Assembly (NCBI GenBank): GCA_020850475.1
Contig: JADZEO010000134.1
Coordinates: 1-64,000 of the forward strand
Source of the DNA: Bdellovibrionales bacterium
GTDB taxonomy: Bacteria; Bdellovibrionota; Bdellovibrionia; Bdellovibrionales; UBA1609
Direction of reading: 5' to 3'
Length of the DNA stretch: 64,000 nt
Each line of letters begins with the position of its first letter. Position 1 is the first letter of the stretch. Position numbers and translations under genes: made by a program. Below are positions 32,189 to 51,302 of the stretch, piece by piece. The notes under the pieces are model-generated. The model was given only the letters and a program-made list of their open reading frames with translations, had not been told where the DNA came from and ran no database searches.

Positions 32189-32195
32189 GCCCACT

Positions 32196-33500
32196 GTGAG
32201 AGTCCCTTGGTACTTTTGGCCCCTGCTTTTGGTCTACCGCTTGGTGGTCCTGCCGATTTTGCTCAGCCTGTTTTTTACTCTCGGGATTTGGTTTTCACCA
32301 AAAGTTCGCCAGGGATTTCGATTGCGCCGCGAATCCCCTCTGCGCCAGGCCCCCGATTGGGTTGGGCAGATCCGCCCTTTGTGGATTCACGCGGCTTCGG
32401 GGGAATTCGAATACGCTAAAGCCCTCTTGCGCGAATTGAAATCCCGCTTTCCGAAAACCCCCGTCCTCGTCACTTATTTTTCGCCCACCTACCAAAAAAA
32501 TATCGCTCAAACCAGTGAAGTCGATTGGCATGAGCCTTTACCTCTGGATACGCCATCGGCTTGCCGCCAGTTTTTGCTGCGCTTTAAGCCGCTCGCTTTA
32601 TTGATTTCGCGCACCGATGTATGGCCGGAAATGATTTATCAATGCCATCGCGCGCGTTTACCCATGATTTTGTTTAGCGCCACTTTTGCAGAAGACAAGG
32701 CCAATCGCTGGCTGAGGGGCCTTCTGGTGCGCTGGCTTTATCCTTTGCTCCAAGAGATCCATTGTGTGAGTAAAGATGACGAAATTCAGCTGCGCCGACT
32801 CCTTCCCAAGTCGGCGGTCACAGCCTCTGGGGACACTCGCTACGATCAGGTTCTTTATCGTTTGAGTCATCGCAAAGTCCTTAAAGAAAATTTAAAACCC
32901 CACCAGCGCCTTCAGACACTGGTCGCGGGCTCGACTTGGCCCGAAGACGAAGCGGCCCTACTTAAAGTGGTGGCGCCGTTTCTCAAAGAAAAGCGACTCC
33001 AAATGATTTTGGCCCCTCACGAGCCAACCCCGGGTCACTTGCGGCCGCTCACAGATCAATTGACCAAATTAGGCGTTCCGTTGCGGATCTATAGTGAGGC
33101 CACGGAATTCAATCTGGGCGAAGTCCTGATTGTGGATCAAGTGGGAATTCTTGCTGATCTTTACTCTTGGGGCTCAATGGCTTTTGTGGGTGGATCCTTT
33201 CGCGGTTCCGTCCATAGTGTGATGGAACCTCTCGGCTCGGGAGCGGTAACCCTCGTCGGTCCTCATCATTACAACAACCGTGAGGCCATGGAGTTTAAAC
33301 ACAAGAGTTTAAATCCGCAACTTCACATGGTTCAGACTTGCCGCTCAAGCCAAGACCTCGGCGAAGCCTTGGCTTTGTTGCTTCAACTGGGGCCTTCCCG
33401 TGCGGGGTGGCCGGAATTAATTATTGATCAAGTGCTAAAAAAGAGCGGCGCCAGCATCCAGCTGGCGCAGTCTTTGGGCAGCAAATTTAATCTGCGCTGA
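32196..33500 (+). CDS. waaA: 3-deoxy-D-manno-octulosonic acid transferase
   Basis: 'WIHAASGEFEYAKALLRELKSRFPKTPVLVTYFSPT', 'VAGSTWPEDEAALLKV', 'GGSFRGSVHSVMEPLGSG'. GTG start at 32196 preferred over 32166. Confidence 0.88.
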   Translation: MRVPWYFWPLLLVYRLVVLPILLSLFFTLGIWFSPKVRQGFRLRRESPLRQAPDWVGQIRPLWIHAASGEFEYAKALLRELKSRFPKTPVLVTYFSPTYQKNIAQTSEVDWHEPLPLDTPSACRQFLLRFKPLALLISRTDVWPEMIYQCHRARLPMILFSATFAEDKANRWLRGLLVRWLYPLLQEIHCVSKDDEIQLRRLLPKSAVTASGDTRYDQVLYRLSHRKVLKENLKPHQRLQTLVAGSTWPEDEAALLKVVAPFLKEKRLQMILAPHEPTPGHLRPLTDQLTKLGVPLRIYSEATEFNLGEVLIVDQVGILADLYSWGSMAFVGGSFRGSVHSVMEPLGSGAVTLVGPHHYNNREAMEFKHKSLNPQLHMVQTCRSSQDLGEALALLLQLGPSRAGWPELIIDQVLKKSGASIQLAQSLGSKFNLR

Positions 33501-33511
33501 ACAGAATTTTC

Positions 33512-36500
33512 TTACTTTCCTGCCGGAGGGGCTCCGGACCCAGGAGTTGGGCGCGTCCCATTACGGAAAGAGTCTTGAGGACGATCCTCAAATGGATACT
33601 CAGGCTTTTCCTCCGCCTCTTCAAGAATCGTATAGAGTCCAGGAAAGGTGGGATGCACTCCGCGGTAAGTGTTCATCATGTGCTGTAAACTCCAAGCCTC
33701 TTCTTTGACGACGGGTTCAAACTTATTGTTGGCCGGAACGGCCTTCAGGAGCACGGCAAAGGCTCTAAAGTCACGCACTCCCCGCAGCGCCAAGAGCCAC
33801 GGGTGATTGTAGATATCGCTCGAGTCAAGTTGATCACCCTCGGTAAAGTGCTGAGTGAAGTAGTAGTACCGCTCTCGAATCGGCGTGATCTTATCTTCGG
33901 CGGCACCCTTACAAATCATCGTCCCTCGCGTGGCCTCAAGAACAAAGCGCTTTTCTTCATCCGACATATTGCGACGATTAATTGGTAAGAACATTACCAA
34001 TTGCTCCCCGAGAGAAGGATTAGGACGAAGCAGGAGGCATCTCTCGTAGTTAACAAGCTCAAGATCCATCGTCGCCTGCTGCATCACCAGGAAGGCCTGC
34101 TCAGAAACAGAAGTCCCGTTCCCGCGGCTTCTGGTTTCTTCGTGGCCAATTCTTAGCGCGAAGGGACTCAGAACTGAACCCACGACCGGAATTCCATTTA
34201 AAGGACCAAGCGGATTAAAGGACTGGCTCCAAGCCAAAGCCTGATTGTAATTGACAGTAAAGTTAGCCCCCACGTTGAGATTGAGCGACTTACCACCTTT
34301 ATAGCGATACTTCCCGGTCTGCAGAACTTTGTACTTACGCTCCATAAATACGGCTGGGACATTGGCTCCAGGATTTTTGAAGAAGTCAAACTGAGTCGTC
34401 ATGCAAAGATTTGACAGCTCCATGCGAATGTCGCGCATGCCACCAAAAGCAATCGACAGTTTTTTGTTTTGATTGTAGCGCTTCCAAGCTTGCTCCGCCT
34501 GCCGCCCGATCATGTCACAGTAGCGAGTAAAGAACGGAATCTCCAGGGGAGCTCCATCAATGACCGCGACGAGATCTTCTTTTGAAACCGGTTTGGTTCC
34601 AAAGCGAGAGTTATTAAGTGACTGCAAAAAATTGTCGGTACTCAGCGTTCCCTCTCGAGTATCCGACAAGCAGTTGCGTTTTTCAGGAATATTCTCATCC
34701 ACTGACTGGCACTTGGCAGAGTCAAATTTTACCAAAGGAGTTTCAACCAGTGAAACGTAAGTGAGGTTAAAATCACGTACAAAAGTATAAAGCAAGGATG
34801 CCACCGAGTTGCGGGCGCGATATTGCTCTTCAAGACGAACCATCTCGCCGATGAGCGAATCAACACTCTTATTATAGAGGTGTTTCACCGACCCAAAGAG
34901 GCGGGAGTCGCGATACTCAACGTCTTCCTTGCGGCCGCCACGGAGGTCGGCAAATTCTTTTTTAATTTGGTCGCAGTCATCACTCGCCGGGCAATAAATC
35001 TCATCAAGATTGTCGGTCGGCCGCATATAAGATCGATTGGAGTTCAACAGCAAAGTCACCGGACCTGAGAATACCCGAGGCTCCAGACCTGAATCACGAT
35101 CCCGCAGACTATCCAAATCCACGACCGGGGCCAGTGGCATGTAAGTCAGATCATTCTTTTTGTAGGCCTGCATGGTGCGGTCTTTCACTCGCGCAAAGAA
35201 CTCCGGCGGCAAGTCCTTCACTTCATCCATTTCTTTATAAAAGATTTCTAGATCTCCAGGATTCGAAGTTCTTCCTGGTCGATTCAGTTCCATTTCAGAC
35301 AACTTGGCCACATAGTTGTGGATGGGTCGCATTTTCGCCGCCACGAAGGCCTTAAGTTCAGCCTCGGACCCCCCGCGATCCGGCTTGAGTCGACGTTGTT
35401 CCTCAAGTTTGCGCAGCTCATCGTGCATAATCGAAATTTTAGTCAACTCTTTCTCATCAATCGTCTCGAGCTGCACCATTAGATTTGCGCGAATTCGCAT
35501 GAGCCGCAAATCGCGCATGGAAATTTCAATGGGCGTAATAATGGTACCGTCTTGAACGCGAACCAGCCGCTTGATGGCAGTGATGTATTGCTTCCGTTTG
35601 GCCTCTTCTTCAAACTGCAGGCGCGTGGCGCCGGAATTCATGTCGCGGCCAATGGAGACCCCTTCGGCCGCGGCATCAAAGTAGTCTTTTTGAACTGCCA
35701 CTTTAAGCAAGTAAATCCCATCCCGGAGAGACTCCGTCGCCCGCCGGCCGTTGACGATACTACTGTAGCGGACCACGCGAGGATCCACCCGGAAGAGCAA
35801 CATCTTTTTGACGTTCAAATTCATGAATTCGTCGATTTCATAGCGAAAACGAAGCGTGTCGTAGCTAAAGTAGTCGAGGAAAAAGAGCGAGGGAATTTTT
35901 TGGCGGCCATTGGTCGCTGTTTGCCCACCGACGGGTCCCACCGAGCGAAGAGACTCAACATACTCGTCAGTCAGGACCCGACGGTCCCGTCCAAAGGTCG
36001 CAAACAGATCCCAGGGGTTAATCGCCAGAGTTAACTCTTTGGTAAATCCACTCGCCACATGAGTGATCTTAACCGACGGGAACAGCAATTCTTCAGGCTT
36101 GTAATACTTGTGGGTGACATGCCCAATCCAAGTCAAACACCCTTCATGATTGGCTTTCGCGACTTCGCGACAAGACTTAGCGGCATCGGGCTTTTGCCCG
36201 AGGGGACACCACGGCTTACTTTTTTGATCCGCATCAGGATAAAAAGCCTTTTCTAAGTCGGCATAGCGAGAGTCCGGAATCATATCGATATAAAAGAACT
36301 CATCACGAACTCGATTGCCACTGACAATGTTGCGCACACAGGCTTCGACCGAATACTCGACCGTACGCGTGGTGGCCGTCTCACCCGGCTTGATAGTTTC
36401 AAATTTGATGTGCATGGTCCCAAACTCAAAGGGCTCCAGCTTAAACGCTTGGTGAGCGTCGAGCATCTTTTGGTAGTTACTGGTGGCTTTCAGGAAATCA

Positions 36501-37609
36501 TCGTACTTAAAGCTTGCACCTTCAGCCGAGGCACGCGGGTTAAACCACAGCATTTGTTTGCCTTGCAACTGAGTAAAGTCGCCAATTTCAAACAGGCCTT
36601 CAAAGGGTTCAAGCTCTTCGGGCGCATTCAGCGGAACCACGCGAAGTGCGAGTTGCAGATTTCCTCGCGCCACTCGACGCGTGATATGAGCGTTGAGGCT
36701 GACCCGGAGAGTTCCGTCACCCTCTTCGATGGTTCCCACCGACGGGGGGATCTCAGGAGTGAGAATCAAACTCTCGTCGCGACTGCCACCCAAGTTGGTT
36801 GCCACAATGTTGGCGTATATCCGAAAGCGACCGGCGGTGAGCGGAAAGGGGCTGGGATCGCCTTGCAAACTGTGAAGTTTCACCACTGGGCGCATGGAGA
36901 GCTGAATCTCCAGGGCCACACCTTTATCCAGCTCTTTGATTTGCTTGATATAGGACGCCACATTTGACATGTAGAGTTGCTTGGTGACCGAATCATCTTT
37001 GTGGGCCGCAGGATTCCCGCCGGAGCGGCCGGCCAAGCGTTCTTTTACTTTTTCGCGCCCCACCACTTTAATGTCCTTGGGGATTTCGCCACCGGTTTTA
37101 ACCCAGACAATTTCAGGGTTACCGGTGCGACGCAAACCCGCCCACGGATTTACCGCGATCTTGAGTTTACGAGGCCCCTTGTAAACGCCTAAGCCTTCGA
37201 TGGTTCTTTCCATTTCCAGATAAGCTTCGTCAGCATAGTAGTTCGGCACCGGAACTCGCTCTTGCCAATGCAGACAGCCGTTCTCATCGGTCCAGGGCTC
37301 GACCGTGGTGTCTTCAACTTTGATTTTAAATTGAATGCCGAGAATTTTATTGCGAGTGGCTCGGTCAATCAAACACGCATAAAAATCATAGTGGCGCGCG
37401 AGCGGCAGCTTCCAGTCCTTGCTGACTTCACGCGTGGGGAGCGCACTGCCCCCGACATTGACGACCAAATAATTGGTGTTCTGCTCTGAAGGGTCTTCAG
37501 ACATGGCTTTGATTTTTGACTGATCATGGGGTTTTGCCTGCCAACATGAAGTGAGCAACAGGCTGCCGATGACGAGCGTTAAGAATTTGCCGCGTCTAGA
37601 ATTCCACAT
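33512..37609 (-). CDS. Very large (1365 aa) lipoprotein of unknown function
   Basis: Lipobox 'SLLLTSC'; start overlaps the stop of the upstream OMP-like gene by 14 nt. Confidence 0.75.
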   Translation of the reverse strand: MWNSRRGKFLTLVIGSLLLTSCWQAKPHDQSKIKAMSEDPSEQNTNYLVVNVGGSALPTREVSKDWKLPLARHYDFYACLIDRATRNKILGIQFKIKVEDTTVEPWTDENGCLHWQERVPVPNYYADEAYLEMERTIEGLGVYKGPRKLKIAVNPWAGLRRTGNPEIVWVKTGGEIPKDIKVVGREKVKERLAGRSGGNPAAHKDDSVTKQLYMSNVASYIKQIKELDKGVALEIQLSMRPVVKLHSLQGDPSPFPLTAGRFRIYANIVATNLGGSRDESLILTPEIPPSVGTIEEGDGTLRVSLNAHITRRVARGNLQLALRVVPLNAPEELEPFEGLFEIGDFTQLQGKQMLWFNPRASAEGASFKYDDFLKATSNYQKMLDAHQAFKLEPFEFGTMHIKFETIKPGETATTRTVEYSVEACVRNIVSGNRVRDEFFYIDMIPDSRYADLEKAFYPDADQKSKPWCPLGQKPDAAKSCREVAKANHEGCLTWIGHVTHKYYKPEELLFPSVKITHVASGFTKELTLAINPWDLFATFGRDRRVLTDEYVESLRSVGPVGGQTATNGRQKIPSLFFLDYFSYDTLRFRYEIDEFMNLNVKKMLLFRVDPRVVRYSSIVNGRRATESLRDGIYLLKVAVQKDYFDAAAEGVSIGRDMNSGATRLQFEEEAKRKQYITAIKRLVRVQDGTIITPIEISMRDLRLMRIRANLMVQLETIDEKELTKISIMHDELRKLEEQRRLKPDRGGSEAELKAFVAAKMRPIHNYVAKLSEMELNRPGRTSNPGDLEIFYKEMDEVKDLPPEFFARVKDRTMQAYKKNDLTYMPLAPVVDLDSLRDRDSGLEPRVFSGPVTLLLNSNRSYMRPTDNLDEIYCPASDDCDQIKKEFADLRGGRKEDVEYRDSRLFGSVKHLYNKSVDSLIGEMVRLEEQYRARNSVASLLYTFVRDFNLTYVSLVETPLVKFDSAKCQSVDENIPEKRNCLSDTREGTLSTDNFLQSLNNSRFGTKPVSKEDLVAVIDGAPLEIPFFTRYCDMIGRQAEQAWKRYNQNKKLSIAFGGMRDIRMELSNLCMTTQFDFFKNPGANVPAVFMERKYKVLQTGKYRYKGGKSLNLNVGANFTVNYNQALAWSQSFNPLGPLNGIPVVGSVLSPFALRIGHEETRSRGNGTSVSEQAFLVMQQATMDLELVNYERCLLLRPNPSLGEQLVMFLPINRRNMSDEEKRFVLEATRGTMICKGAAEDKITPIRERYYYFTQHFTEGDQLDSSDIYNHPWLLALRGVRDFRAFAVLLKAVPANNKFEPVVKEEAWSLQHMMNTYRGVHPTFPGLYTILEEAEEKPEYPFEDRPQDSFRNGTRPTPGSGAPPAGK

Positions 37610-38930
37610 ACAAAGTCTCCACCTTAAAGAACACTGAATCGAGTTTCTCCTGAGAAGCGTTCGGATTGATCACTTCGCTTCCTAGGTACTCGGCTACGAC
37701 CCTGAAATTGTATGAACGAAACAGAATTTCAATGCCAAACCCATCGCCCTGGCGATTGTTGTGCCCCCGCGCCCCACTGTTATAGCGGGCCGGCGACGTA
37801 TCGGACTCATTAAAGAACTGAAGATAATAAGGACTGACCACCGCACCCATGATGCCCATGTCGGCCCGCAAGAACATTTCCTGACCTCGGTTAAAGCTGG
37901 GGTCGGCTTTGGTATTCTCCAGCCAGTAACCCCCGCCGCGAATTTTAAAAGTATCCAGCACGCACAGGCAGGCTTCGGCGCCCGCCAGCCAGCCTTCAAA
38001 GTCATAGTTAAAAAAACTATTGCCCGGCAGCTCGCCTGAAGTGGAATTTCCCCAGCGCGAACTTTCATAGGCGACCACCGCCGGAAGATCACCGTACTTC
38101 CAATGAGTCGCTGAACCAGTCAATTCAAAGGCATTCTTGAGTTGGAGACCACCGCGCAGAGTTTCGGTCACAAAGGTGGGAGTTTTTTCTTTTTCTACGC
38201 GCATGGTTTCAAACGAAGTGGAAGTGGGAATCGTTTGACTCGCAATGAACTCAAGATAAGTTTTCTTGCTCCCCGCACGCAGAGTTTCGCTCACGCCCGG
38301 GAAGGCTCGGTCAGTGATCAACAAGGGCGCATTCAAGTAGCCCTGGCTGAGAGCTCCACCCTTGATTTCTAGAAACGAAAAGGGCCGAAAACGAGCGGCG
38401 ACTTCGTAGGGCAAAATTCCTGATTGAACGGAGTCATTAAAGCGCGATTGAACTTGGCTCGTGATGAGCTGCAGTTTAGCATCGGCATAAATATCAAAAC
38501 TCTCGGTGAGCTTGTAAGTCATCCGTGGGCGCAAAGTAAATCCCACCATGGTGCCTTCATCTTGCGCTTCGGAAAATGATTCACCACCCACGCCCATCGC
38601 CCATTCGCCAGACAAGCGCTTTTCAATGGTTTCATCTTCCACCCGCAAGCGCGATTGGGAATTGGCTTCCGATGGTGACGGTTTTGATTTGTTTTCGAGT
38701 GCCCGGGCCGTCGGCGCCGGAGAGAGTAAGACAAGTACGGCCATCAATACGGCCAATACCACTGGTTGGGCCAAGGCCGATAAGCCACGCCCCTCTTCCA
38801 CCATGGGGAGGGTGCCAATTTGAGGGTTCAACGTCCTTGAGTTAATTTCCCTGCTCCTCGTAAATGCCGTCCCCGAAATCCGGGGACTCCATGAGACCAC
38901 TCTTGCAAGCTCTATACATCCTCGTAACAT
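37596..38930 (-). CDS. Outer-membrane beta-barrel-like protein (cassette A)
   Basis: Beta-rich sequence ending in aromatic 'VETLYVEF'; possible start at M43 (38804), which is followed by a signal-like segment. Confidence 0.65.
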   Translation of the reverse strand: MLRGCIELARVVSWSPRISGTAFTRSREINSRTLNPQIGTLPMVEEGRGLSALAQPVVLAVLMAVLVLLSPAPTARALENKSKPSPSEANSQSRLRVEDETIEKRLSGEWAMGVGGESFSEAQDEGTMVGFTLRPRMTYKLTESFDIYADAKLQLITSQVQSRFNDSVQSGILPYEVAARFRPFSFLEIKGGALSQGYLNAPLLITDRAFPGVSETLRAGSKKTYLEFIASQTIPTSTSFETMRVEKEKTPTFVTETLRGGLQLKNAFELTGSATHWKYGDLPAVVAYESSRWGNSTSGELPGNSFFNYDFEGWLAGAEACLCVLDTFKIRGGGYWLENTKADPSFNRGQEMFLRADMGIMGAVVSPYYLQFFNESDTSPARYNSGARGHNNRQGDGFGIEILFRSYNFRVVAEYLGSEVINPNASQEKLDSVFFKVETLYVEF

Positions 38931-39089
38931 TATATAAGTTATTGATTATACGAGTTTTTTTACACAACGGGAGGATGGAAGGGACTGCCTAACTAGCGAA
39001 CATTAGGCCGCAAATTGTTGGTTTGAAAAGTTTCCTATGAAAAATTTGGAAAACGGCTTAATCTACCCCACTATTCAAGGAGTTAGGAA

Positions 39090-40400
39090 ATGGTGACCCC
39101 CCTCAATCCACTGCGAAAGCTTCCCCCCCCAGCCAATTTCAAAAAGGGCGACGTCCTAGTCGTTTTTGGGGAGCTTTTTGCTCGCGGCTACGCCAACGGC
39201 ATCGTCGAAGAAGCCCAGAAACATGGAATGAAGGTTATTTATTCCACCGTCGGCCGCCGGGATGATCAAGAAAAGTTGCGACCCCTGACGCCTGAGGAAC
39301 TTGCCGAGAAGGATCAGCCCTTGATCAATGTTCCCCTGGAAGCGGGCTTTGATATGGAACCCAGCAAATCCGGAGTGCGCCCGATTGATCAGCTGGCGAA
39401 CAAAAAACTGAGTGAGTGGAACTCCGTGCAAATGAATTTTAAGCAAATCGAAGAGAGCCGACTCTCGGGGATTGAAAGTTTTCGGGGCCGGGTGCGGGCC
39501 TATTTGCAAGAACTCGAAAAACATATTCCCCACGGTGCCAATGTGGTTTTTGCCCACACCATGGCCGGTGGAGTTCCTCGAGCTAAAATTGTGATGCCCG
39601 CCATGAATCGGGTCTTCAAAGGTTCAGGCGACCGATTTGCCTCGAGCGAGGAATTTTGGAACACCGACATGGGCCGCTTTTGTGCGCAAAGCTTTGAGGA
39701 AGTCACTGCCAACACTCTCCGCCACTTAATTGATTTGAGCACTCAGCTGAGAGAAAAAATTCAAGCTCAGGGGGGCAAGGTCTCCTACACGGCTTACGGT
39801 TATCATGGCACGGAAATCCTCATCGAAGGTGAATACCGCTGGCAGTCTTACTCCCCTTACCTCCAGGGCTTTGCCAAAATTTTGCTCGAGAACATTGCGC
39901 AAGAGTATTGGCAAAAAGGAATCAAGGTAACGGTGTTTAATGCCCCCGAAATTCTCACCAATTCTTCGAGCATTTTTCTGGGCGTTGAGGTTTCTCTTTA
40001 CCCATTGATGGGTGCCCTTCGCAAAGAAGCTAGCCGTCACCCGCGAATTGCTGAAATCTTAAGGAAGTGCCAGAGTGTTCTCAAAGAAGATTTCACCTTA
40101 GACGAAGTGCTTGAGTACACCGACGAGTACTTCACTTCTGAAACCATTGGTGTGGAGTGGAGCCGCTTCAATGTGTGGCCCCAACATAATGGCGCCGAAC
40201 AAATGGCCCTGATGCGCGAGACCAGTACCGGATTAATCGAGATGCATCGAGACGCTAAAAATCTGCTGACTGCTGAACTCAGCGAAGTTGTGTTTCGCGC
40301 CTGCGGGGAGATCATGCTGGCGGAAGCGGCGAATCCTCAAGCTCCGGTCTGGTGGCTGGGGCACGACATTGTCGCCAAACAAACTGCGACTCAAAGTTAA
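39090..40400 (+). CDS. Conserved cytoplasmic protein, possibly a nucleotide-binding reductase-like fold
   Basis: 'FKKGDVLVVFGELFARGYANGIVEEAQKHGMKVIYSTVGRRD' looks Rossmann-like; family not certain. Confidence 0.5.
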   Translation: MVTPLNPLRKLPPPANFKKGDVLVVFGELFARGYANGIVEEAQKHGMKVIYSTVGRRDDQEKLRPLTPEELAEKDQPLINVPLEAGFDMEPSKSGVRPIDQLANKKLSEWNSVQMNFKQIEESRLSGIESFRGRVRAYLQELEKHIPHGANVVFAHTMAGGVPRAKIVMPAMNRVFKGSGDRFASSEEFWNTDMGRFCAQSFEEVTANTLRHLIDLSTQLREKIQAQGGKVSYTAYGYHGTEILIEGEYRWQSYSPYLQGFAKILLENIAQEYWQKGIKVTVFNAPEILTNSSSIFLGVEVSLYPLMGALRKEASRHPRIAEILRKCQSVLKEDFTLDEVLEYTDEYFTSETIGVEWSRFNVWPQHNGAEQMALMRETSTGLIEMHRDAKNLLTAELSEVVFRACGEIMLAEAANPQAPVWWLGHDIVAKQTATQS

Positions 40401-40590
40401 ATAAAAGCGTTGATCCTGGTGAGCAATTGTCCAATTTTGAGTCACTAGCCCTTGTTCTCATTTTGAAACACGCAAGATTTGTCCGCACATTCGACAACTT
40501 AGCTTGAGCCTTGGTGGCCCCAAAGGCACCTCCGTTTGGCCCTCTCTTTGCTCAATCTAAGCATGAGGTGTTCTAAAAAGGAGAGGGGAT

Positions 40591-41256
40591 ATGGATCAAT
40601 TCTTTGGTTTTAGGCAGTTGTCTTTTTGGCGAATTGGATTGGTAATGGCCATGCTGTGGGCCTTTGGTTGTGCTAGCAAAAATCCACCGCCGTCGATTAA
40701 CAAGTCTTCAGCAAATTCCAACGGAGGGGGGTCGCAACAAACCAACCCGTTCAATCCGGTTCCGCAGCCGCAACCCAACCCTGGGCCTGTGACTCCGGCA
40801 GGATCGCTCACCTTTTCGAATACGATGGCCAATGCCCTCGCCGGCACTAACGTCTCAAGTTTTCGGCTCTTTGAAATTGTTCATGGCGTGGTCCGAGGGG
40901 GTGGTAGTGCAAATGCCTATGGCTGTGCCGTACCGGTGGGTAACACCGGTTGCGACAACTTTAGCAATTGGACTCATTTACCAACAGAGGATTGGACCTT
41001 TAATGCCAGCGACCAGACCTGGCGAATGTCCGCAGATTTTCTGTGGCTTCAACGAGATGCGGTCGGTGACTTCGTGATGCACTTTAAGGATCTTGATACC
41101 AAGGTCGAGGTCTCAAAGATTATCAAGCTCACTTGCCTAAACGCTTGGTACAGCACCAGTGCCGTGATCGGCCCTTACTATCCCCCTGAGGCCTGCGATT
41201 CTCTTGGGAAGACCACAACTGGTGGGGGCGGGAACTGGGTCTGCGACTGTCGTTGA
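40591..41256 (+). CDS. Lipoprotein of unknown function
   Basis: 'GLVMAMLWAFGCASKNPPP' lipobox and Pro/Asn/Gln-rich linker; AAGGAGAGG RBS. Confidence 0.65.
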   Translation: MDQFFGFRQLSFWRIGLVMAMLWAFGCASKNPPPSINKSSANSNGGGSQQTNPFNPVPQPQPNPGPVTPAGSLTFSNTMANALAGTNVSSFRLFEIVHGVVRGGGSANAYGCAVPVGNTGCDNFSNWTHLPTEDWTFNASDQTWRMSADFLWLQRDAVGDFVMHFKDLDTKVEVSKIIKLTCLNAWYSTSAVIGPYYPPEACDSLGKTTTGGGGNWVCDCR

Positions 41257-41295
41257 GACCAAGTTGTTAAAGCTGATTTGGCTCGCGATCTCGGA

Positions 41296-42126
41296 TTAGA
41301 AAAAACTTTTTGGTTTAAGGATTAACGACGCGCCAATGGCGGCCGCCAGTAGAATTGTCAGTATCAAGGCGCGCCCAATTAAGTCGCGCCAAGACCCTGG
41401 CGGCACTGGACTTCGAGTGGCTTGCTTCCACCAAAAGTGCGATGTCGCAAACAACACCAGCGGAGCCATCCACCCCAGGGGAACTTCGAGGTAATAGTGC
41501 GCCACTAAGGCCTGCCAAAACCACCATAACCAAAGCCAACCAAGAGGCTTGGCTTGCAAGCCTGGGCGGACCATTAGCTCAAAGGCCAACAAGACCCCCA
41601 AAGAGGTTAAGCTCCCCATAATTATTTGCGACTGGGACGCACTCCCCCACAGCAGCGCAATCCAAGCCAAATAGGCAGTTGAAAAAACTCCGGCCAGCAG
41701 GGCGTCGCGCCCCCTCAGGTCACTCGCTCGAAAGCGCCCCAGCGCTTCGCCAACTCCGAGCCAAATTGCCAACAGTGAGTAGACACCGATCTGCTCGACC
41801 CAAGCTAACTCTAAGGGTTTAATTACGAGCCACACCACCACGATGGAGAAGGCCATAACGACTAGGCCTAGTATTCGCCGACCGCGCGCCAGACTCCACA
41901 AAAGAGCCAATAGTGGCGAGCACATCACCAACCAATCATTACCGCTCAAGGACTCCCAGACGGGAATTCCAGCAAGTGCCCACCATGCAGCCGAGTAAGC
42001 CAGGGCCGGAGCCAGACTCCAGCAGGTCCAATTCCAACGTCGCTCGAGCTGGAAGTTGATCCCCAATAGACCGACGGAAAAAAACAGGGGAAGTATCGCA
42101 CTTCCCCAGGCAATCGTTAGAATCAC
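41296..42126 (-). CDS. Polytopic integral membrane protein
   Basis: Multiple Trp-rich hydrophobic segments. Confidence 0.6.
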   Translation of the reverse strand: MILTIAWGSAILPLFFSVGLLGINFQLERRWNWTCWSLAPALAYSAAWWALAGIPVWESLSGNDWLVMCSPLLALLWSLARGRRILGLVVMAFSIVVVWLVIKPLELAWVEQIGVYSLLAIWLGVGEALGRFRASDLRGRDALLAGVFSTAYLAWIALLWGSASQSQIIMGSLTSLGVLLAFELMVRPGLQAKPLGWLWLWWFWQALVAHYYLEVPLGWMAPLVLFATSHFWWKQATRSPVPPGSWRDLIGRALILTILLAAAIGASLILKPKSFF

Positions 42127-42133
42127 AACTCAA

Positions 42134-42724
42134 TTAAAGAGTGCCTTCGACCGACAAAGTGATCTCCACTTCATCACCCAAACCACCCTCTTGGGCCATG
42201 TAGTTCATGCCAAAATCAGTGCGCTTAACCGTAAACTTGGCCATTCCACCCGTACGATCTTTCTTCCAAGGATCTTTTCCGGTCTTGAGACGCTCGAAAT
42301 TAAACGACACGGGCTTAGTTACTCCCCTCATCGTCAAATCGCCGGTGACTTCGTAGCGATTGCCGCCCAGTCCAACCACCTTGGTGCTTTTGAAGGTGAT
42401 TTTTTTGTGCTTTTTAGCATCAAAGAAATCCGCTTTGCGTAAGTGATCGTCTCGGTCTTTGTTGAGAGTATTGATGCTAGCCGTAGCAATTTCCACGGAA
42501 ATTTGGCTAGCCGGTGGATTGGCATCGTCAATCGTGAACTCACCTTTGACGTCACCAAACATTCCATGGGTGTAGCTAAAACCCAAGTGGTTAATCTTAA
42601 ACAACACTTGAGTGTGGCCTGGATCAATTTTGAACTTTTGAGCACTTGAAGCGGGCACTGCCGAGGCCGTCATCGCCGCCACTAAACCCACCGCAAACAA
42701 TAAAACCAATTTCTTCATGAACAT
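42134..42724 (-). CDS. YceI-family protein
   Basis: 'FKIDPGHTQVLFKINHLGFSYTHGMFGDVKGEFTIDD...LRKADFFDAKKHKKITFKST'. Confidence 0.95.
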   Translation of the reverse strand: MFMKKLVLLFAVGLVAAMTASAVPASSAQKFKIDPGHTQVLFKINHLGFSYTHGMFGDVKGEFTIDDANPPASQISVEIATASINTLNKDRDDHLRKADFFDAKKHKKITFKSTKVVGLGGNRYEVTGDLTMRGVTKPVSFNFERLKTGKDPWKKDRTGGMAKFTVKRTDFGMNYMAQEGGLGDEVEITLSVEGTL

Positions 42725-42788
42725 TCCTCCGTCGTTGGAGGAAAATCATATTGACCGAATCACCCTTTGGGGAGTCCTATTGCGCTGT

Positions 42789-45500
42789 TTAATTTGGCAG
42801 TTCCATCGGCATTATCAATTGATTTTCATCGCTTGATGTCTGTTGTTGATCCCAAAGCTCTCTCTCCCGCGGCGCACTGGGTAAGCGCTGGCCGCCGTCG
42901 GTGATGGTTCCAAAAATGCGAAGCAAGTCCATGCGATTTAGGTTGATGGACCAGCTAAAGCCGCTCAGTGCCTTTGACCAGACCACTCCTGCCCCACCAC
43001 TGGGAATTGAGCCTCGATTGGACAAAATGTATCCGTAGACATCTTGAAGATCCCCGTCATCCAAATCATGGCCGCCGGCCCGGGCAAGTTTGCCAATCAA
43101 CCCGCGAAAAACCGGAAATGCCACCCAGGCTTCATCGGTTTCCATGTGGTCATTCCGATTGGTATCAAACCGAGTCATGATCGTTTCAACGTAGTGAATG
43201 ATGACCGCTATCGATCCGATTTCGCCGGACTCAATCCACTGACAGTAATTCTTAGAAACTTCTTTGCTGCGAACCCAAGGACAATGCACCGGGTTCATCT
43301 CTTTTTCCCGCAATTCCTTAATCACCGTATCAAGAAGCGGCAAGCGCCGCTCGTTGTTTTCTAAGCACGCCTGATAGGCTTTGCGGGCGCCTGGTCTAAA
43401 GCGCGCAAAATTTGGTGACGAACAAGTGGCCATGGGTTTGGTGTCACCCAGGGTCGTGGCCACTTCCTGGTACTCGGTTTCATCTTGAAGAGGCCGGACC
43501 ACGATGTTTTCTAAAATCGCGTAAGCCTCCGCCCGACCACTGCGATCCAGACTGTCCCAAAATCGCTTCATGTGCGGCAGACCGACTAAGTGAGAACTCA
43601 ATTCCGCGAGGGCCTTCTTGCGAAAGCACTCGCGATCAACTTTGGGTCGCCCAAAAACGTCGATAGATCCCTTAGGGCAGGCTTTGAGTCCCAAGTGATA
43701 GAGCTCGTCATTGAGATTCCCGCCTGAGTAAATCAAGCTGACCAACTCCAGGCCTTCTTCAAAGTTGAGTAAGTGAGCCGTCGGATTATCCGGGTTCGGG
43801 CGCTGCAACCCATTACCGTTAAATGTAAAGACGTTGCCTTCAGTAAAGGCCCGCCCGCCGAGCCCAGGGACATTGCGAGGGTCAATAAAGTGGAGGTCTC
43901 GGCCCAATTCCTTTACGTCGCGAAAAAAGTGGGTCATTTCCTCGTCAGTAAGACCTTGCATTTGACTCACTCGAGATTGTTCCTCGGCATACCCGCGAAT
44001 TAAAATTCGCACCAAGCCGCGGACCACATTCATCACCGAAAGATTGTAAAATCCGTGGTAGACGTCGAGTTCCCCCAACTCCTCGATGGGAGCCAGGACC
44101 ACTTTACTTGAATTGACTTTGAACAAGGGGCGAACCAACCGACGAATACTTTCGAGTTCTTGGCTCACGATGTGCTCAGCTCCGGAGGTAAAAAACTTAA
44201 TGCCCAACGGCGCTGGATCGATGCGCAGGCCGGCCGGGCTCGGCGCGCCCAAGACCTTCATGGCCAAATCCACCGACTGCGCCTGTTGCGCCGGGGAAAA
44301 ACTGCGGTCGAGGTAAATTTGAATATCTGCCCACCGATAGAACTCTGATTTGGCTTGATTAAGCGCGTAGAGGTTGAGCCCCGCCGAGGACCGCTTCTTA
44401 GGCTTGACTTGGGTGTCGCCTAAAATACGGTCAATCACGGGACGAAGGGATTGGGAAACACCGCTTGCGGAAAACTTGGCGGGCATTAACCCGAGTGCTT
44501 TCATTCGATATGCCAGCTGCTCGAGATCCTCAAACTTGAGAACCTTCTCCGTCTGCCGATTGATCGCGAGCTCAATCAAATGAATGGCGCGTCCGACGTT
44601 ATCAACAAAGTCCTCGAGCCCCGGGCCGTAGATCAGACTGCCGTCACCATTTTCGTAGTGAAAGCGAATGTAAAAGGAGTACCAACCAAAGCCAGCTTGC
44701 AGCAGAGTTCCCCACTCCTGAGGTTCCACCACATCGCGCGCGCCACCGGTGGTGACCGTCTTAAAGATTCCCAACAGATCTGCCCATCGCCTCGCCTTGA
44801 TCGCCGAGTCCGTATCGCTACCGTAAATAAAGCGCGCCAATTCCACCAAAAATTCTTGCATCTGCACCAGCGGGTAAGAATTGATCTTTTCCCCTAACTG
44901 CTGACCCAAATACTGCGCAACTCGAATGGTGGCCTCGCTGGCCGCCCGAGCCTCGCTCAAACGTTGGCGGTACTCAGGGATCGCCCCAATGCCGACGCGA
45001 GTATTGAGCGCCCGCAAATAAGGCTGCATTTGAATGCTCGCGGCTTTGAAAATGTCGAGGACATCGTTGAGTTTAGTAAACTCGGCGCGGGTGATCTTAT
45101 CGGTGGTTCCCCCTAACAGCATCACTTTCAAATTCACCGATTCGCGCAGCAAGGGATCCGAAATCGCCCCGGGTTTTAAAAAGTTGTTTTCTAAAAAGCG
45201 CCTGAGTTCCTCCGGCTGATAGGAATCCCGGTCAGCACCGCGAGTGTAACTCTGAAACTGGGTAAACGCTCGCTTGAGGCAATCATAGAACTCGCCGGTC
45301 TCTTTGGCGGTAAATTCGGCACGAAAGTAGCCATCGAGGTTTTCGCGAATATGAGTGACGCAATGAAATCCGCGAGCGTCGAGTTTGACCGGAGTTTCTT
45401 TTTCCTTTTCATCGCCAATGTTGAGCCCGCAGCCGATCCCCAAGACCAAGAGGCTTCCCGTGAGCAGCACCGCAACCAACGCCTTCAATCTAAAAGACAT
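42789..45500 (-). CDS. Large (903 aa) lipoprotein with EF-hand-like loops (cassette B)
   Basis: Lipobox-like 'LVLGIGC'; EF-hand loop 'DTNRNDHMETDE'; paralogous to 47255..49783. Confidence 0.75.
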   Translation of the reverse strand: MSFRLKALVAVLLTGSLLVLGIGCGLNIGDEKEKETPVKLDARGFHCVTHIRENLDGYFRAEFTAKETGEFYDCLKRAFTQFQSYTRGADRDSYQPEELRRFLENNFLKPGAISDPLLRESVNLKVMLLGGTTDKITRAEFTKLNDVLDIFKAASIQMQPYLRALNTRVGIGAIPEYRQRLSEARAASEATIRVAQYLGQQLGEKINSYPLVQMQEFLVELARFIYGSDTDSAIKARRWADLLGIFKTVTTGGARDVVEPQEWGTLLQAGFGWYSFYIRFHYENGDGSLIYGPGLEDFVDNVGRAIHLIELAINRQTEKVLKFEDLEQLAYRMKALGLMPAKFSASGVSQSLRPVIDRILGDTQVKPKKRSSAGLNLYALNQAKSEFYRWADIQIYLDRSFSPAQQAQSVDLAMKVLGAPSPAGLRIDPAPLGIKFFTSGAEHIVSQELESIRRLVRPLFKVNSSKVVLAPIEELGELDVYHGFYNLSVMNVVRGLVRILIRGYAEEQSRVSQMQGLTDEEMTHFFRDVKELGRDLHFIDPRNVPGLGGRAFTEGNVFTFNGNGLQRPNPDNPTAHLLNFEEGLELVSLIYSGGNLNDELYHLGLKACPKGSIDVFGRPKVDRECFRKKALAELSSHLVGLPHMKRFWDSLDRSGRAEAYAILENIVVRPLQDETEYQEVATTLGDTKPMATCSSPNFARFRPGARKAYQACLENNERRLPLLDTVIKELREKEMNPVHCPWVRSKEVSKNYCQWIESGEIGSIAVIIHYVETIMTRFDTNRNDHMETDEAWVAFPVFRGLIGKLARAGGHDLDDGDLQDVYGYILSNRGSIPSGGAGVVWSKALSGFSWSINLNRMDLLRIFGTITDGGQRLPSAPRERELWDQQQTSSDENQLIMPMELPN

Positions 45501-47016
45501 AGGTCATGCCCCCGATTAAACGGTCATTCTGATGATAGCGGCTAAACGAACTCTTTTCGCTGATCTTGCCGTCTGGTCCGGGATCAACTCCCAGGACGTC
45601 GACGCCGATGTGCCATCTCACCTGCGGAGAAAAGCCCCACTTAACGGACGCCGAAAGCCAGCTGGCCTGATCGGGCAAAGAGTAAGTGTATTGTCCAACC
45701 CAAGACAAGTGGCGTCTGACTGAATTCCATAGCTGCGCGTCCCAACGAAAGCCAATTCCTTGCTGAAGCGGAAAGCGTTGGATGGAGTCTTTCATCCCGT
45801 CGCCAACCAGTCCTTGCCCTCGACCCTCATGGTGAATCCGCGACTCGTCAGTGAGGAGGTAGTTCCAACTGACCTTACTCTGGGGAAGACCTGGAAGAGG
45901 GAGGGCGTGACCCAAGTGGGCACCGTACACCCGAGTCAAAAACAAGGGAGCTTGATCCCATTCGGTGGACATAGAAGGGGCATCGGGCTTTTCTTGAGAG
46001 GCAGAAAACCAGAGCTTGACCGCCTCCCAGGAGTGACCGGCTTCCACGGTGTTGACTTGATGAGAGAGCACCGAGGCGTGAATGATGGCGACCGTGTTGC
46101 CGGCGGTGGGAGTGAGGGCCAAACTATGGTACCCTTCCAGACCCAGATGCAGATGGTTCATGGGCTTGTGAGTGCTCGACCACTGCATCCACCCGCCGCG
46201 GTCGGGGTTGCCTTTGCGCAGTCGAAGCGCCCATGAGGTCTGAAATATCACATCTTCGACCCGGGGTTTATCGAGCTGGTAGTAGATGGCGGAAGTATTG
46301 CGAAACACTTCAATCTGATCTTGCGGCGGCAGAAACCAGCGGTTACCCGACTCAAAACTTCCATCGGTTAAGGTGAACTGAGGACCTTGATCCGGGATAA
46401 AAAAGGGCGAAACGAATCCCAAAATTTCCCAATCATCCGTTTGCCCGCGGGCAAATACCCCAATCAGACCCTGCTCCTGAGGGCGAAGGTAATCCCAGCG
46501 AAACAGCGGCTGCCAAAGTCCCAAATTCCACTCGCGATCCAACAAACTCCAATCGACCCGTCGTCGACCGACGCCAAAGTGATAACTTTCGGCCGTACCG
46601 GTCCAGCCCACATAGGCTTCGGGTACCGTGATATGAACTTCGCGCGAGTTATCGAGTGCTTGCTGTCCCCAAGCTTGGAAGATCATCTCCCGGTCATCAG
46701 TCGTCGTGAGGACTTCGTAGTTGAGTCCCAAGGTGGAATAGGAGGTGGCGTGCTCACGAATTGGACCATCGGTCACATAGTGGTCGCCAATCACCGAGAG
46801 CGAAAAGGCTTCCTTACGAAACTGCGGAGTCTCACGAAAATTGAGATCGCGACGGACGAGAAAAAAGTCCACCTCCGCCGAGGCAGCAAAGGCCACAGCA
46901 AAGCCGACAATGGCGAGGAACACCACTGCACTTACCTGTCTTGTGGGACACTTAACCCGCCCGAACCCCAAAAAACACCTCGTCAGTTGCTTGCGTCGAC
47001 AAACCCCAAAAACCAC
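45490..47016 (-). CDS. Outer-membrane beta-barrel-like protein (cassette B)
   Basis: Beta-rich, C-terminal 'GGMTYVF'; paralogous to 49773..51302. Confidence 0.7.
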   Translation of the reverse strand: MVFGVCRRKQLTRCFLGFGRVKCPTRQVSAVVFLAIVGFAVAFAASAEVDFFLVRRDLNFRETPQFRKEAFSLSVIGDHYVTDGPIREHATSYSTLGLNYEVLTTTDDREMIFQAWGQQALDNSREVHITVPEAYVGWTGTAESYHFGVGRRRVDWSLLDREWNLGLWQPLFRWDYLRPQEQGLIGVFARGQTDDWEILGFVSPFFIPDQGPQFTLTDGSFESGNRWFLPPQDQIEVFRNTSAIYYQLDKPRVEDVIFQTSWALRLRKGNPDRGGWMQWSSTHKPMNHLHLGLEGYHSLALTPTAGNTVAIIHASVLSHQVNTVEAGHSWEAVKLWFSASQEKPDAPSMSTEWDQAPLFLTRVYGAHLGHALPLPGLPQSKVSWNYLLTDESRIHHEGRGQGLVGDGMKDSIQRFPLQQGIGFRWDAQLWNSVRRHLSWVGQYTYSLPDQASWLSASVKWGFSPQVRWHIGVDVLGVDPGPDGKISEKSSFSRYHQNDRLIGGMTYVF

Positions 47017-47254
47017 CCCATTGCTCGTTTTCCAACCTGCCCGGTGGTCGCATCGAATTGATCATTTAAATGAACAGCAAGAACCGTACTCGACGACTCG
47101 ACTCCCAGGAGCCGACAGGCCATGAAAATTTTTCTCAATCAGGAGGTGTTAAAGGCTATATTCGCGAAGATCACTCCAACCGGGGGGTGATCCCGCCGCG
47201 ACCCGGCGCAATTAGGCACTCGCTGGGTAAACTTTTCTTAAGTGCGAAGCTCTC

Positions 47255-49783
47255 TTACAAGGACTTCGACAGTTCTGACAGGATTCTTACCACACGAACG
47301 CGATCAGCCTCAAAAGACCACTCGGCTTTTTTGTCTTTCCACTCTTGCAACAACTTAAGTCCGTCGATGTCCTGGGGCGGTGGTCGGCCGTTTTTCATCA
47401 TGTAAGTGAACAAAGCCTCGCGGTCACTGCGCTCAGCAAAGCCCAACAGATTCATCAATGGCAAGTCAAAGACCGGAAAGGCCCCAAGCGCTTCTTCAAC
47501 GTTGATCGTTAAAACTTGAGCATCGCGATTAAAGCGAGTGAAAAACGTCTCGATGTACTGAAGCAAAATAAAAATCTCTCTCACATCCGAGGTTTTAATG
47601 GGCTTGTCAGAATAGCCCTCGTCACCTCGGGTCGCGGTCTCTAAGTACTCCTGAATATGTCCCCACTGTTCGGGCGCCAGGGTATCAACATACGCATTAA
47701 AATTGGGTAAGTGGGCGAGAAACTGGTGCCGCTCTTTTCCAAAGTGTTCGCGAAAGCAAGACGTCACGAGGCGTTCGTCGCCGGCTTCGGCATTACGACA
47801 ATCCTTCGGCAAGAAGGCCAACAGTTCTCCACCCGCATCAATGCCGCTCAAAACAAAAGTGAGATACTCAATGCCCTCTTCGAAATCGACCAGCTCATTG
47901 CCGTTCGCCCGTGGCATAAAGAGATCGGCCTCAAGATGTATGCGCTCGGCCAGACTGTCGTCGCCCTCTTTAAAGATCCCCATGTCGACGCCGATGGGAC
48001 GAACGTCGGTCGCCAAAAGATCCAATTCGTCGATGTTCAGGCCACGCAACTGGTCGGCTCGTTCACGCTCTTCGGCGTAACCAAGGACGAAAAGCCTCAG
48101 CAGAGCGCGCGACCAATTCATCTGGGTCAAACTCTTTTGATCCCAAGCCATATCGGCGACGTTTTTAAATACCAACCGACCCTTGGGATCTTTCACTAAT
48201 GGCCACGGACCCGCGAGGACTCGCTTCATTTCAAGCTTGATTGAATCATCGCCCGGATCCGGGTTTTTCCCTATGGCCATAAGGTTCGCAAAATCCTGCG
48301 CGGTCTTCCACCCCGCCCACTGAAGGCGCAGGTAGGCCATGGTTTTTTGGTCGAGGCCTTCAGGTTTAACGCCCGAGAGCCGGTCTTCGGGAGACCTCAA
48401 CAAGCGATGCAGTAAAGCCGGAAGACTTGCTTCGATGGAACTTCCACGAATTTTAAGCGGCAAGACTTTGGCTTGATCTAGACTCGCAATTAAACTCTTC
48501 AGTTCCGCCATTGGGATTACCGCTTTGGGCTTTCTCACCAGCGCTGAGTCAATGACGTCCATCCCGAGGCCAACCACGCGGTCCAACTGACGCAGGCCCT
48601 CGCCTTGGCTCCAGTCGTTGGGTTTAACTAAATGAGAATACCTTAAACCCACTTCGGCCAAGCGAGTGGCCGTGAGCATAAACTGGGGCCACTCGTCAGG
48701 GCCAATGGCATTTTTGGCGCCGCCGACTAACTGAAATTTGATTTCTCCAAACAGAGGAAGCCAACTAACGAACTGTTTGAGGTCTTTTTTTGAACCATGT
48801 TTCTTCATGAGCTGATCGAGGTCAGTGATCAAGCGCTCAATCGTGGGCCACTCGAGAACCTGGTCGGTTTGCGCAAACATCTGGCCCAGTCGCGTGGAGG
48901 CGGACTTCATCGAATCAAATGCTTGTTCTAACATCACCGGGTCACTGGCCCACCCTTGATGAGTGGTAAAGTGCTCAGCCCTCATCCAAAGACCAAAGCT
49001 TTCAGCCAAGATGGTCCCGAGTCTCACCCACTGCTTGGCGCCGATGCGATCGGCTGGCGAGCCCACGAGTTGCAATTTCGCCTGGCGAACAAAGGGCATC
49101 AAATCCTGAACAAAACTTGCGCGGCTGTTTCCCGCTCTCTGAGTCAACTTGTTGAGCTCGGTCAACAGCGTCTCAAACCGGGCAAACTCATAGGATTGCC
49201 CCCGGGTTTCGATGATGCGCGCAAAGCGCGCCAGCACGTCCGAAAGCGCCGCCAAAGATCGGTTCAACTCATCGACTGAGTAGAAACGCTGATGGCGATA
49301 AAACTCCCCCTTGATGACCTGAATGTGCGGATTTAAATCAATGGTCAATTGGCGGAAGTCTTCGATGATTAATTGGGTGGTTTCAAGTTCATTGCGAGTG
49401 ACAAAATCACGGCTCCCCGCCAGGAACACTCTTTTGATTTCCATGAATTCTTCTAGGAGAGTGTCGTTGATGCGCAACTCGCCCAAAAAAAAGTTGTGTA
49501 AAAAGTGACGTAACTCTTGCGAGGAATAAATTCCGACCTGTCGGCCTTGCGTAAAGCGTAGAAAAATATCGAGAGCCCGCTGGGTGCAATCCCAAAACGC
49601 ATTGATTTGCTGAGCATTGAGTCGACCGTCGAGGTAGTCGACAAAGGTCTCATCGGCTTTATCCAAACACTGTGACTCTTTCATTTTGACGACCGGCGGA
49701 GTTTGGTAAGGCTGATCCTCTCCGCTGCATCCCACCAGTACGAGAGCCACGATCATCACCCAAGCGCGAAGTTTAGAAAACAT
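47255..49783 (-). CDS. Large (842 aa) lipoprotein with degenerate EF-hand-like loops (cassette C)
   Basis: Lipobox 'LVLVGC'; same architecture as 42789..45500. Confidence 0.75.
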   Translation of the reverse strand: MFSKLRAWVMIVALVLVGCSGEDQPYQTPPVVKMKESQCLDKADETFVDYLDGRLNAQQINAFWDCTQRALDIFLRFTQGRQVGIYSSQELRHFLHNFFLGELRINDTLLEEFMEIKRVFLAGSRDFVTRNELETTQLIIEDFRQLTIDLNPHIQVIKGEFYRHQRFYSVDELNRSLAALSDVLARFARIIETRGQSYEFARFETLLTELNKLTQRAGNSRASFVQDLMPFVRQAKLQLVGSPADRIGAKQWVRLGTILAESFGLWMRAEHFTTHQGWASDPVMLEQAFDSMKSASTRLGQMFAQTDQVLEWPTIERLITDLDQLMKKHGSKKDLKQFVSWLPLFGEIKFQLVGGAKNAIGPDEWPQFMLTATRLAEVGLRYSHLVKPNDWSQGEGLRQLDRVVGLGMDVIDSALVRKPKAVIPMAELKSLIASLDQAKVLPLKIRGSSIEASLPALLHRLLRSPEDRLSGVKPEGLDQKTMAYLRLQWAGWKTAQDFANLMAIGKNPDPGDDSIKLEMKRVLAGPWPLVKDPKGRLVFKNVADMAWDQKSLTQMNWSRALLRLFVLGYAEERERADQLRGLNIDELDLLATDVRPIGVDMGIFKEGDDSLAERIHLEADLFMPRANGNELVDFEEGIEYLTFVLSGIDAGGELLAFLPKDCRNAEAGDERLVTSCFREHFGKERHQFLAHLPNFNAYVDTLAPEQWGHIQEYLETATRGDEGYSDKPIKTSDVREIFILLQYIETFFTRFNRDAQVLTINVEEALGAFPVFDLPLMNLLGFAERSDREALFTYMMKNGRPPPQDIDGLKLLQEWKDKKAEWSFEADRVRVVRILSELSKSL

Positions 49784-51302
49784 AGCTCACCCCGAGAGAA
49801 AAGCGATCGTTGGAGCGATACTCACCAAGAAAGCCGTCGCTGACCTCGGCGGCTTTTTCGTCGACAATCCCCAACAAGTCGACGGCTCCATAAAGTTGCC
49901 ATTGTGGTCCCCAACTCCAGGCGGCGTCGGTTATAAAGGCCAACCCCTGTTGAACGAAGTCATAAATCCCGCGCGCCCCCCAGCTCAGACGATGCTGCTT
50001 GCGCAGCCAGTAGCCGTTGCGCAATCCCAGTTCCGCCGATTCGATGAACTGATAGCGGCGCTCAAAAAGCGTTTCGCGAGCGGTGAATTCGCCGGCGTCC
50101 GGTCGGTCGCCGCCATCCACTCTTGAATAGGCTGCATAGACATGACTGCTTTCTTTTGGGCCGACGTTGACGTCATGCCCAACATAGGCCGTTAAGATTC
50201 CCGTCTTCCCCGTATTTTGGTAGGTCCACTCGCGAGGAATCGAATCAAACTCCGGTCGCTCAAAGGAGTAACTCAACCAACTGGTGAGGCCGCCGGATCG
50301 TTGCCAGCCGCCTTCCAGAGTGGACAGATGGTGATACTGCACCCGAGGGTAAACGCGCACCCGAATGTCTTGCTGACCGGCTTCCTTGTGTTGAAAAACG
50401 AATTGCCCAGCCAAGAGCATCTGGTTCATTGGCTTGTAGGCATGGGAGGCGCGCACAAACCAATTCTCCCAGTGCTGCTCCAATCGCACCGCCAAACTTT
50501 CGTTGAGCACCACGTCACTCTCGACGGGGTTGACGACCGAGTACTTGAGCGGCGTATCGACTCCCAAAAAGTTGAGACTCGCAGAAGGGGGTCGAAAATA
50601 GGGATTGGGTGAGTAAAAATCTCCGTCAATGATTTGATGATCAGGGCCAAATTCGGGGACAAACAAGGGTGAGGCAAAAAACAGCACCGAACCTCGACGC
50701 CAGCGACTCTCCAGAAAAACTCCGGTGAGCCCGTGACTGTCCTTGCGAAGTTTATCATTCATGAACCGGCCCTGATAGAGACCGCGCTTGAGATGCTCGT
50801 CGGCTTCACTCCACAGATACCACTTGCGCCCGGCCCACACCTTCCACTTTTGATCCTGCCACCCGGCATAGAGATTCTTGGGCATGAGGTAATTGGCATC
50901 TTCTTGAAGCGCAAAGCGATTGGTGAGATCCACTTCGCCTTGGAGAACGCCCTGCCAACGGTAACTAAAATCAAAGGTCAGGTCAGAAACATCTGACACA
51001 ACTCCGCGCTTTTTAAAGAAGTGAGTGTCGGCCCGAAAATACGAAGACGAGCTCAGCTTGAGACCCAACTGCAAGTGATCGGCGGCTTCAGGGTGACTCC
51101 ATCCTTCTCCTTGAGGAAGTCGCACTTGGGGAAGCTCGGCGGTGCTCGGTTGCGCCTGACCACCAAAACTTAACGCCAAGGCAATGGCCAACAGCGCCCC
51201 ACGACCTTTACCCATCAATGCGTCCATATCCTTCTCCCGAATGGTCCCAACCTGCTTGTCGACTTTGGGTGTCATAGATATTATTCCCCAATGAAAGAGC
51301 AA
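49773..51302 (-). CDS. Outer-membrane beta-barrel-like protein (cassette C)
   Basis: Beta-rich, C-terminal 'LGVSYVF'; paralogous to 45490..47016. Confidence 0.7.
   Translation of the reverse strand: MLFHWGIISMTPKVDKQVGTIREKDMDALMGKGRGALLAIALALSFGGQAQPSTAELPQVRLPQGEGWSHPEAADHLQLGLKLSSSSYFRADTHFFKKRGVVSDVSDLTFDFSYRWQGVLQGEVDLTNRFALQEDANYLMPKNLYAGWQDQKWKVWAGRKWYLWSEADEHLKRGLYQGRFMNDKLRKDSHGLTGVFLESRWRRGSVLFFASPLFVPEFGPDHQIIDGDFYSPNPYFRPPSASLNFLGVDTPLKYSVVNPVESDVVLNESLAVRLEQHWENWFVRASHAYKPMNQMLLAGQFVFQHKEAGQQDIRVRVYPRVQYHHLSTLEGGWQRSGGLTSWLSYSFERPEFDSIPREWTYQNTGKTGILTAYVGHDVNVGPKESSHVYAAYSRVDGGDRPDAGEFTARETLFERRYQFIESAELGLRNGYWLRKQHRLSWGARGIYDFVQQGLAFITDAAWSWGPQWQLYGAVDLLGIVDEKAAEVSDGFLGEYRSNDRFSLGVSYVF

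Follow-up and report, generated by a model that had tools for sequence, protein, structure and literature searches.

Why should the gene of an outer-membrane β-barrel protein end, three times over in one stretch of DNA, inside the start of a gene for a large lipoprotein? This arrangement occurs on the minus strand of the window, by which we mean the whole 64,000-nucleotide (nt) stretch of a Bdellovibrionales contig (JADZEO010000134.1) that was analyzed. An earlier note on this DNA had described three barrel/lipoprotein pairs with overlaps of 14, 11, and 11 nt, and the open reading frame (ORF) coordinates and junction sequences bear this out. We propose, with a probability of roughly 0.7, that each pair is an obligate two-gene unit (a cassette), in which an outer-membrane β-barrel gene is followed by the gene of its large lipoprotein partner, translation of the two is coupled, and the products form a porin–lipoprotein complex.

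Geometry of the three junctions

The barrel genes are called OMP1 to OMP3 here and the lipoprotein genes LP1 to LP3; all features of the pairs lie on the minus strand. OMP1 (37596–38930), which encodes a porin-like protein ending in VETLYVEF, overlaps LP1 (33512–37609; 1365 residues, outside known families) at positions 37596–37609. OMP2 (45490–47016), a barrel by its predicted structure that ends in IGGMTYVF, overlaps LP2 (42789–45500; 903 residues) at 45490–45500. Its paralog OMP3 (49773–51302), assigned as a barrel by homology to the OMP2 model and ending in SLGVSYVF, overlaps LP3 (47255–49783; 842 residues) at 49773–49783. The junctions read tATGTggaattcTAG in pair 1 (14 nt), tATGTcttttAG in pair 2 (11 nt), and tATGTtttcTAA in pair 3 (11 nt). 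The annotated starts of OMP1 and OMP3 are probably too far upstream, the positions of the signal peptides pointing to true starts at about 38804 and at 51227 or 51215, respectively.

The lipoprotein ATG falls within the codons for the C-terminal Tyr–Val of the barrel (TAT GTN): its A is the middle base of the Tyr codon, and it is read in the +2 frame. Thus, the ATG of LP1 (37609–37607) lies within TAT GTG of OMP1, that of LP2 (45500–45498) within TAT GTC of OMP2, and that of LP3 (49783–49781) within TAT GTT of OMP3. The distance of Tyr–Val from the stop codon therefore sets the overlap length, which is 11 nt for barrels ending in YVF and 14 nt for those ending in YVEF. This dependence on the C-terminal Tyr–Val of the barrel signal had been overlooked in the earlier note, although the overlaps that it reported are real. 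The aromatic last strand at the C terminus of a barrel is the β-signal that the Bam machinery recognizes. Putative ribosome-binding sites also lie in barrel codons: a Shine–Dalgarno sequence GGTGGAG in OMP1 (37617–37623; Val–Glu of a conserved L/V-E-T motif), a Shine–Dalgarno-like GGGGG in OMP2 (45509–45513; Gly–Gly), and a Shine–Dalgarno-like GGGGTGAG in OMP3 (49786–49793; Gly–Val–Ser). In the best reading of these junctions, the β-signal, the ribosome-binding site, the start codon, and the n-region of the lipoprotein signal peptide are packed into about 25 nt.

Pairs 2 and 3 are, judging by alignment, ancient paralogs: OMP2 and OMP3 are 27% identical (BLAST E 1e-31), and LP2 matches LP3 with an E of 2e-27. 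No relationship of pair 1 to pairs 2 and 3 was found by BLAST, and profile comparison (hhalign) gave probabilities of only 4.9 and 2.3; shared ancestry was rejected on these two grounds. The idea of one design used three times holds in so far as the three pairs share it, but pairs 2 and 3 are duplicates and the three are not independent inventions. None of the six window proteins had a significant match in Pfam or NCBIfam, and a search of the open-access literature returned nothing on this overlap or on these families. Pair 1 (family 1) and pairs 2 and 3 (family 2/3) represent two uncharacterized barrel–lipoprotein families that occur phylum-wide in Bdellovibrionota.

Conservation and codon constraint

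Overlaps of 4 to 23 nt are frequent elsewhere in the window (ORF list), and because of this, the three overlaps by themselves are weak evidence. What goes beyond chance is the exact conservation of the overlap across the phylum. Junction regions were taken from relatives and across the phylum, and barrels and lipoproteins were identified with iterated profiles; the named relatives recovered in a search with a four-sequence alignment were Bdellovibrionales metagenome-assembled genomes. OMP2/3 profile matches occurred in 146 of 194 sampled phylum genomes, and OMP1 was found in 61/146 phylum genomes.

Of the 103 junctions in family 2/3, 92 have a start codon at exactly −11 relative to the end of the barrel stop (89 ATG, 2 TTG, and 1 GTG), and in 68 of these 92 cases translation of that stop in the frame of the lipoprotein yields Lys or Arg. 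Almost all sampled families beyond the order to which the window belongs have the overlap as well; the family labeled f17 shows two losses. For family 1, a start at −14 was found in 28/39 junctions of a first set and, among the phylum-set junctions at which a lipoprotein follows the barrel, in 15 of 16, giving about 43/55 overall. One of the latter junctions also carries an ATG at −17, and at two of them the downstream protein scores below the LP1 profile cut-off but has a lipobox. Most family 1 junctions that have no −14 start still overlap, at −17, −8, −4, or −1. At two junctions (L169 in G086 and L170 in G182), the overlap is gone and only a short gap separates the barrel gene from that of the lipoprotein; these junctions provide a natural control for coupling.

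The nucleotides of the junction appear to be constrained beyond what the barrel protein requires. Where a G-starting codon comes next, Tyr at this position is encoded by TAT in 77/77 cases (backgrounds 0.73 and 0.68; p 1.8e-8 and 3e-4). When Tyr is replaced, a start is retained: TTG with Phe or Val, GTG with Cys, Ser, or Gly, and ATG with His, Asn, or Asp. In barrels that have lost the overlap, the penultimate residue is mostly I, S, Q, T, or L, and Val or Ala is therefore not needed there by the barrel itself.

Similar choices are seen at the ribosome-binding site. In the L/V-E-T motif of family 1, the Glu codon is GAG in 26/26 cases (background 0.39; p 3e-11) and the Leu/Val codon ends in G in 23/23 (p 5e-11); together, these codons spell TGGAG at normal Shine–Dalgarno spacing. 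Many genomes of families f16 and f17 encode the peptide LRK instead, yet their DNA reads AGGAA. The Gly codon before the site in family 2/3 is GGA or GGG in 52 of 68 cases (p 3e-7), and the Shine–Dalgarno score exceeds a synonymous-codon null in both families (z 2.4 and 4.9). Judged from these codon choices, the barrel sorting signal also serves as the ribosome-binding site of the partner.

The overlap does not extend to barrels in general. The pattern TATGNNTTYTAR gave 16 matches in the window's own genome, compared with 25 for a reversed-pattern control; the only real-looking overlaps among the matches were those of pairs 2 and 3 and of one pair of an OMP-like and a non-lipoprotein gene. In this last pair (L151, G000:C70:3598-3609), the OMP-like ORF ends in GLSYDF and overlaps the next ORF by 11 nt, and the downstream protein is membrane-protein-like, without a lipobox.

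The proteins and their partnership

The predicted model of OMP2 (a 461-residue chain) is a confident β-barrel, with a predicted local distance difference test score (pLDDT) of 91.8 and roughly 18 to 20 strands by DSSP. Among folds in the PDB, AlgE, an 18-strand barrel, was the best match (E 1e-11; template modeling [TM] score about 0.5), followed by other porins, with Wzi and OprB further down. OMP3 is predicted to be an outer-membrane β-barrel by homology to OMP2. The OMP1 profile has the alternation of hydrophobicity that is expected of membrane strands (z 5.1), like OMP2/3 and unlike LP2/3, and 2 of 38 OMP1 family members gave weak matches to Porin_5 in Pfam. The suggestion that all three upstream genes encode barrels thus stands on a confident model for OMP2, on homology for OMP3, and on hydrophobicity alternation and the Porin_5 matches for OMP1.

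LP1, LP2, and LP3 have the predicted signal peptide and the conserved lipobox Cys by which bacterial lipoproteins are identified. This Cys is near-invariant in LP2/3 (C19; the lipobox of LP3 reads LVGC) and invariant in LP1 (C22), which has four more invariant Cys residues toward its C terminus. The LP3 model is all-helical, with helix–short strand–helix units, and a fold search with it against the PDB gave no significant match. LP2 has an EF-hand-like segment near its C terminus; the LP2/3 family profile matches the EF-hand protein NCS-1 (E 9.5e-6), and Pfam EF-hand models match 3 of 48 family members. In the LP1 family (window 33512–37609), an NPW motif is repeated at residues 154–156 and 531–533 in similar sequence context, which probably reflects a duplicated domain. 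Two LP1 relatives from two species of one genus (L110, G051:C7, and L122, G058:C82) carry TAG in frame at comparable positions, which hints that the LP1 gene has been split or truncated there.

The claim that each barrel keeps its own lipoprotein is upheld by co-occurrence in relatives and by a partner-swap test. Among 59 relatives, LP2/3 relatives were found in 46 and OMP2/3 in 47, an identical genome set when profile evidence for one genome is included, so that the family 2/3 partners are concordant in 59/59 (one by profile). LP1 and OMP1 were each found in 43 relatives, with two discordant genomes (concordance 57/59). Barrel and lipoprotein trees correlate with a Mantel r of 0.82, and swapping partners inside the 30 two-cassette genomes lowered the correlation in 2000 of 2000 trials, with a maximum of 0.76. 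The cassettes have been duplicated and inherited as units.

In most of the family-f1 loci fetched, the cassettes share a locus with a FabMG-type enoyl reductase, often together with a relative of the window gene at 32166–33500, which, from its sequence, we take to be KDO-transferase-like. Pair 1 and pairs 2/3 flank this FabMG-type enoyl-ACP reductase gene (39090–40400 in the window) in most of these loci. Elsewhere in the window, the gene for a 1048-residue NHL-repeat protein (19728–22874) adjoins an M16-type peptidase gene.

Proposed coupled translation and its alternatives

The barrel gene would do three jobs with its 3′ end: encode the C-terminal β-signal, supply the Shine–Dalgarno sequence and start codon of the lipoprotein, and provide a stop codon whose bases usually specify a basic residue (Lys or Arg) in the lipoprotein signal peptide. 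Most likely, a ribosome that ends the barrel would step back (by 5 nt for the 11-nt overlap and by 8 nt for the 14-nt overlap) and reinitiate on the lipoprotein, aided by the embedded Shine–Dalgarno sequence, and lipoprotein output would track barrel output. By analogy with AlgE–AlgK, the two products most likely form a porin–lipoprotein complex in which the lipoprotein is docked on the barrel; pairs 2 and 3 would then form an AlgE-like pore bearing a helical, possibly calcium-dependent, lipoprotein. The sequence data and models establish the overlap and how it is conserved, the constraint on synonymous sites, the joint inheritance of the partners, a barrel model for OMP2, and a helical one for LP3; from these, we infer reinitiation, binding, and an export or gating function. 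Subunits of one complex are overrepresented among gene pairs that overlap or lie close together (−8 to +10 nt; PMC10666635).

The same geometry could be a frozen accident of the β-signal, with Y-V-F ends yielding an ATG through TAT GTN and the pair being inherited without selection on coupling. The position of Tyr–Val alone does set the overlap length, and the identical 11-nt overlap of the OMP-like GLSYDF ORF with a non-lipoprotein ORF means that the geometry can arise independently. Set against this are the invariable TAT, the starts kept when the residue changes, the synonymous Shine–Dalgarno bias in both families, and the penultimate residues of overlap-less barrels, in which Val or Ala is dispensable. 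We regard this explanation as quite unlikely, and at the level of the start-codon constraint, it is largely refuted. Somewhat less improbable, though still unlikely, is that free 30S subunits initiate the lipoproteins independently at the embedded site, the overlap being compaction only. The usual coupled overlaps are −4 and −1, and coupling efficiency drops with overlaps beyond −4 nt (PMC12548453); since coupling is reported to be weaker with longer overlaps, independent initiation stays as a rival, and the normal spacing of the Shine–Dalgarno sequence fits it as well. However, a site embedded in the barrel gene would be swept continually by the ribosomes translating that gene, and the −11 and −14 positions are maintained exactly, with no drift.

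Several observations weigh against coupled, complex-forming cassettes. Overlaps of −11 and −14 are not the optimum for coupling (PMC12548453). In a few junctions, the overlap is absent and the pairs are nonetheless kept; the overlap is therefore not indispensable. Many junctions have an alternative in-frame start, the overlapping one being the sole start in 23/54 and 9/28. The p-values given above are optimistic because the binomial tests count related genomes, not evolutionary events, as independent, and physical linkage alone may yield the Mantel signal. The resemblance of OMP2 to AlgE is moderate at the level of the fold (TM about 0.5), with ~11% sequence identity, and no polymer synthase or modification genes were recognized beside the cassettes.

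AlgE, the best structural match of OMP2, is the alginate export porin of Pseudomonas, and its partner AlgK is a tetratricopeptide repeat (TPR)-containing outer-membrane lipoprotein presumed to rest on its barrel (PMC9734138). In contrast, the LP2/3 family has EF-hand signals in place of TPRs, for which profile and Pfam searches gave no match, and the lipoproteins here are about twice as large as AlgK; none of the 64 OMP2/3 members matched any Pfam family, including Alginate_exp, at E 0.01. A porin–lipoprotein complex of Rhodospirillum rubrum (PMC11369160), a member of another phylum, offers a precedent for an outer-membrane porin that works with a lipoprotein. Termination–reinitiation pairs likewise have short same-strand overlaps and often encode subunits of one complex (PMC12548453, PMC10666635), but their overlaps are 4 or 1 nt and not 11 or 14, whereas here, the start and the Shine–Dalgarno sequence lie inside sorting-signal codons, phylum-wide and in two unrelated families.

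It is very improbable that the cassettes are TonB-dependent uptake pairs of the SusC/SusD type. The layout is reminiscent of that system, with adjacent genes for a barrel and a helical lipoprotein, but the barrels are porin-sized. No TonB plug or TonB-dependent receptor was matched in Pfam by OMP1, OMP2, OMP3, or family members, no SusD was matched in Pfam by the lipoproteins or found among the listed fold matches of LP3, and the 461-residue OMP2 chain matches porins and AlgE. These results rule out SusC/SusD membership for pairs 2 and 3, and the view that the cassettes are unrelated to SusC/SusD agrees with the Pfam scans and fold matches, in which no relationship was found.

For the coupled cassettes proposed here, the sorting signal and the translation start signal use the same nucleotides, and natural losses act as controls. 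We know of few gene overlaps of one exact length that are held over a whole phylum. On balance, we think it probable that the junction is a phylum-wide dual-coded element in two unrelated families, in which the sorting signal of the barrel is also the ribosome-binding site and start of its partner, the two proteins are made in a single ribosome pass and assembled together, and the start codon dictates the penultimate residues of the barrel. The two families belong to a phylum that includes Bdellovibrio-type predators, and their putative complexes and function are now directly testable.
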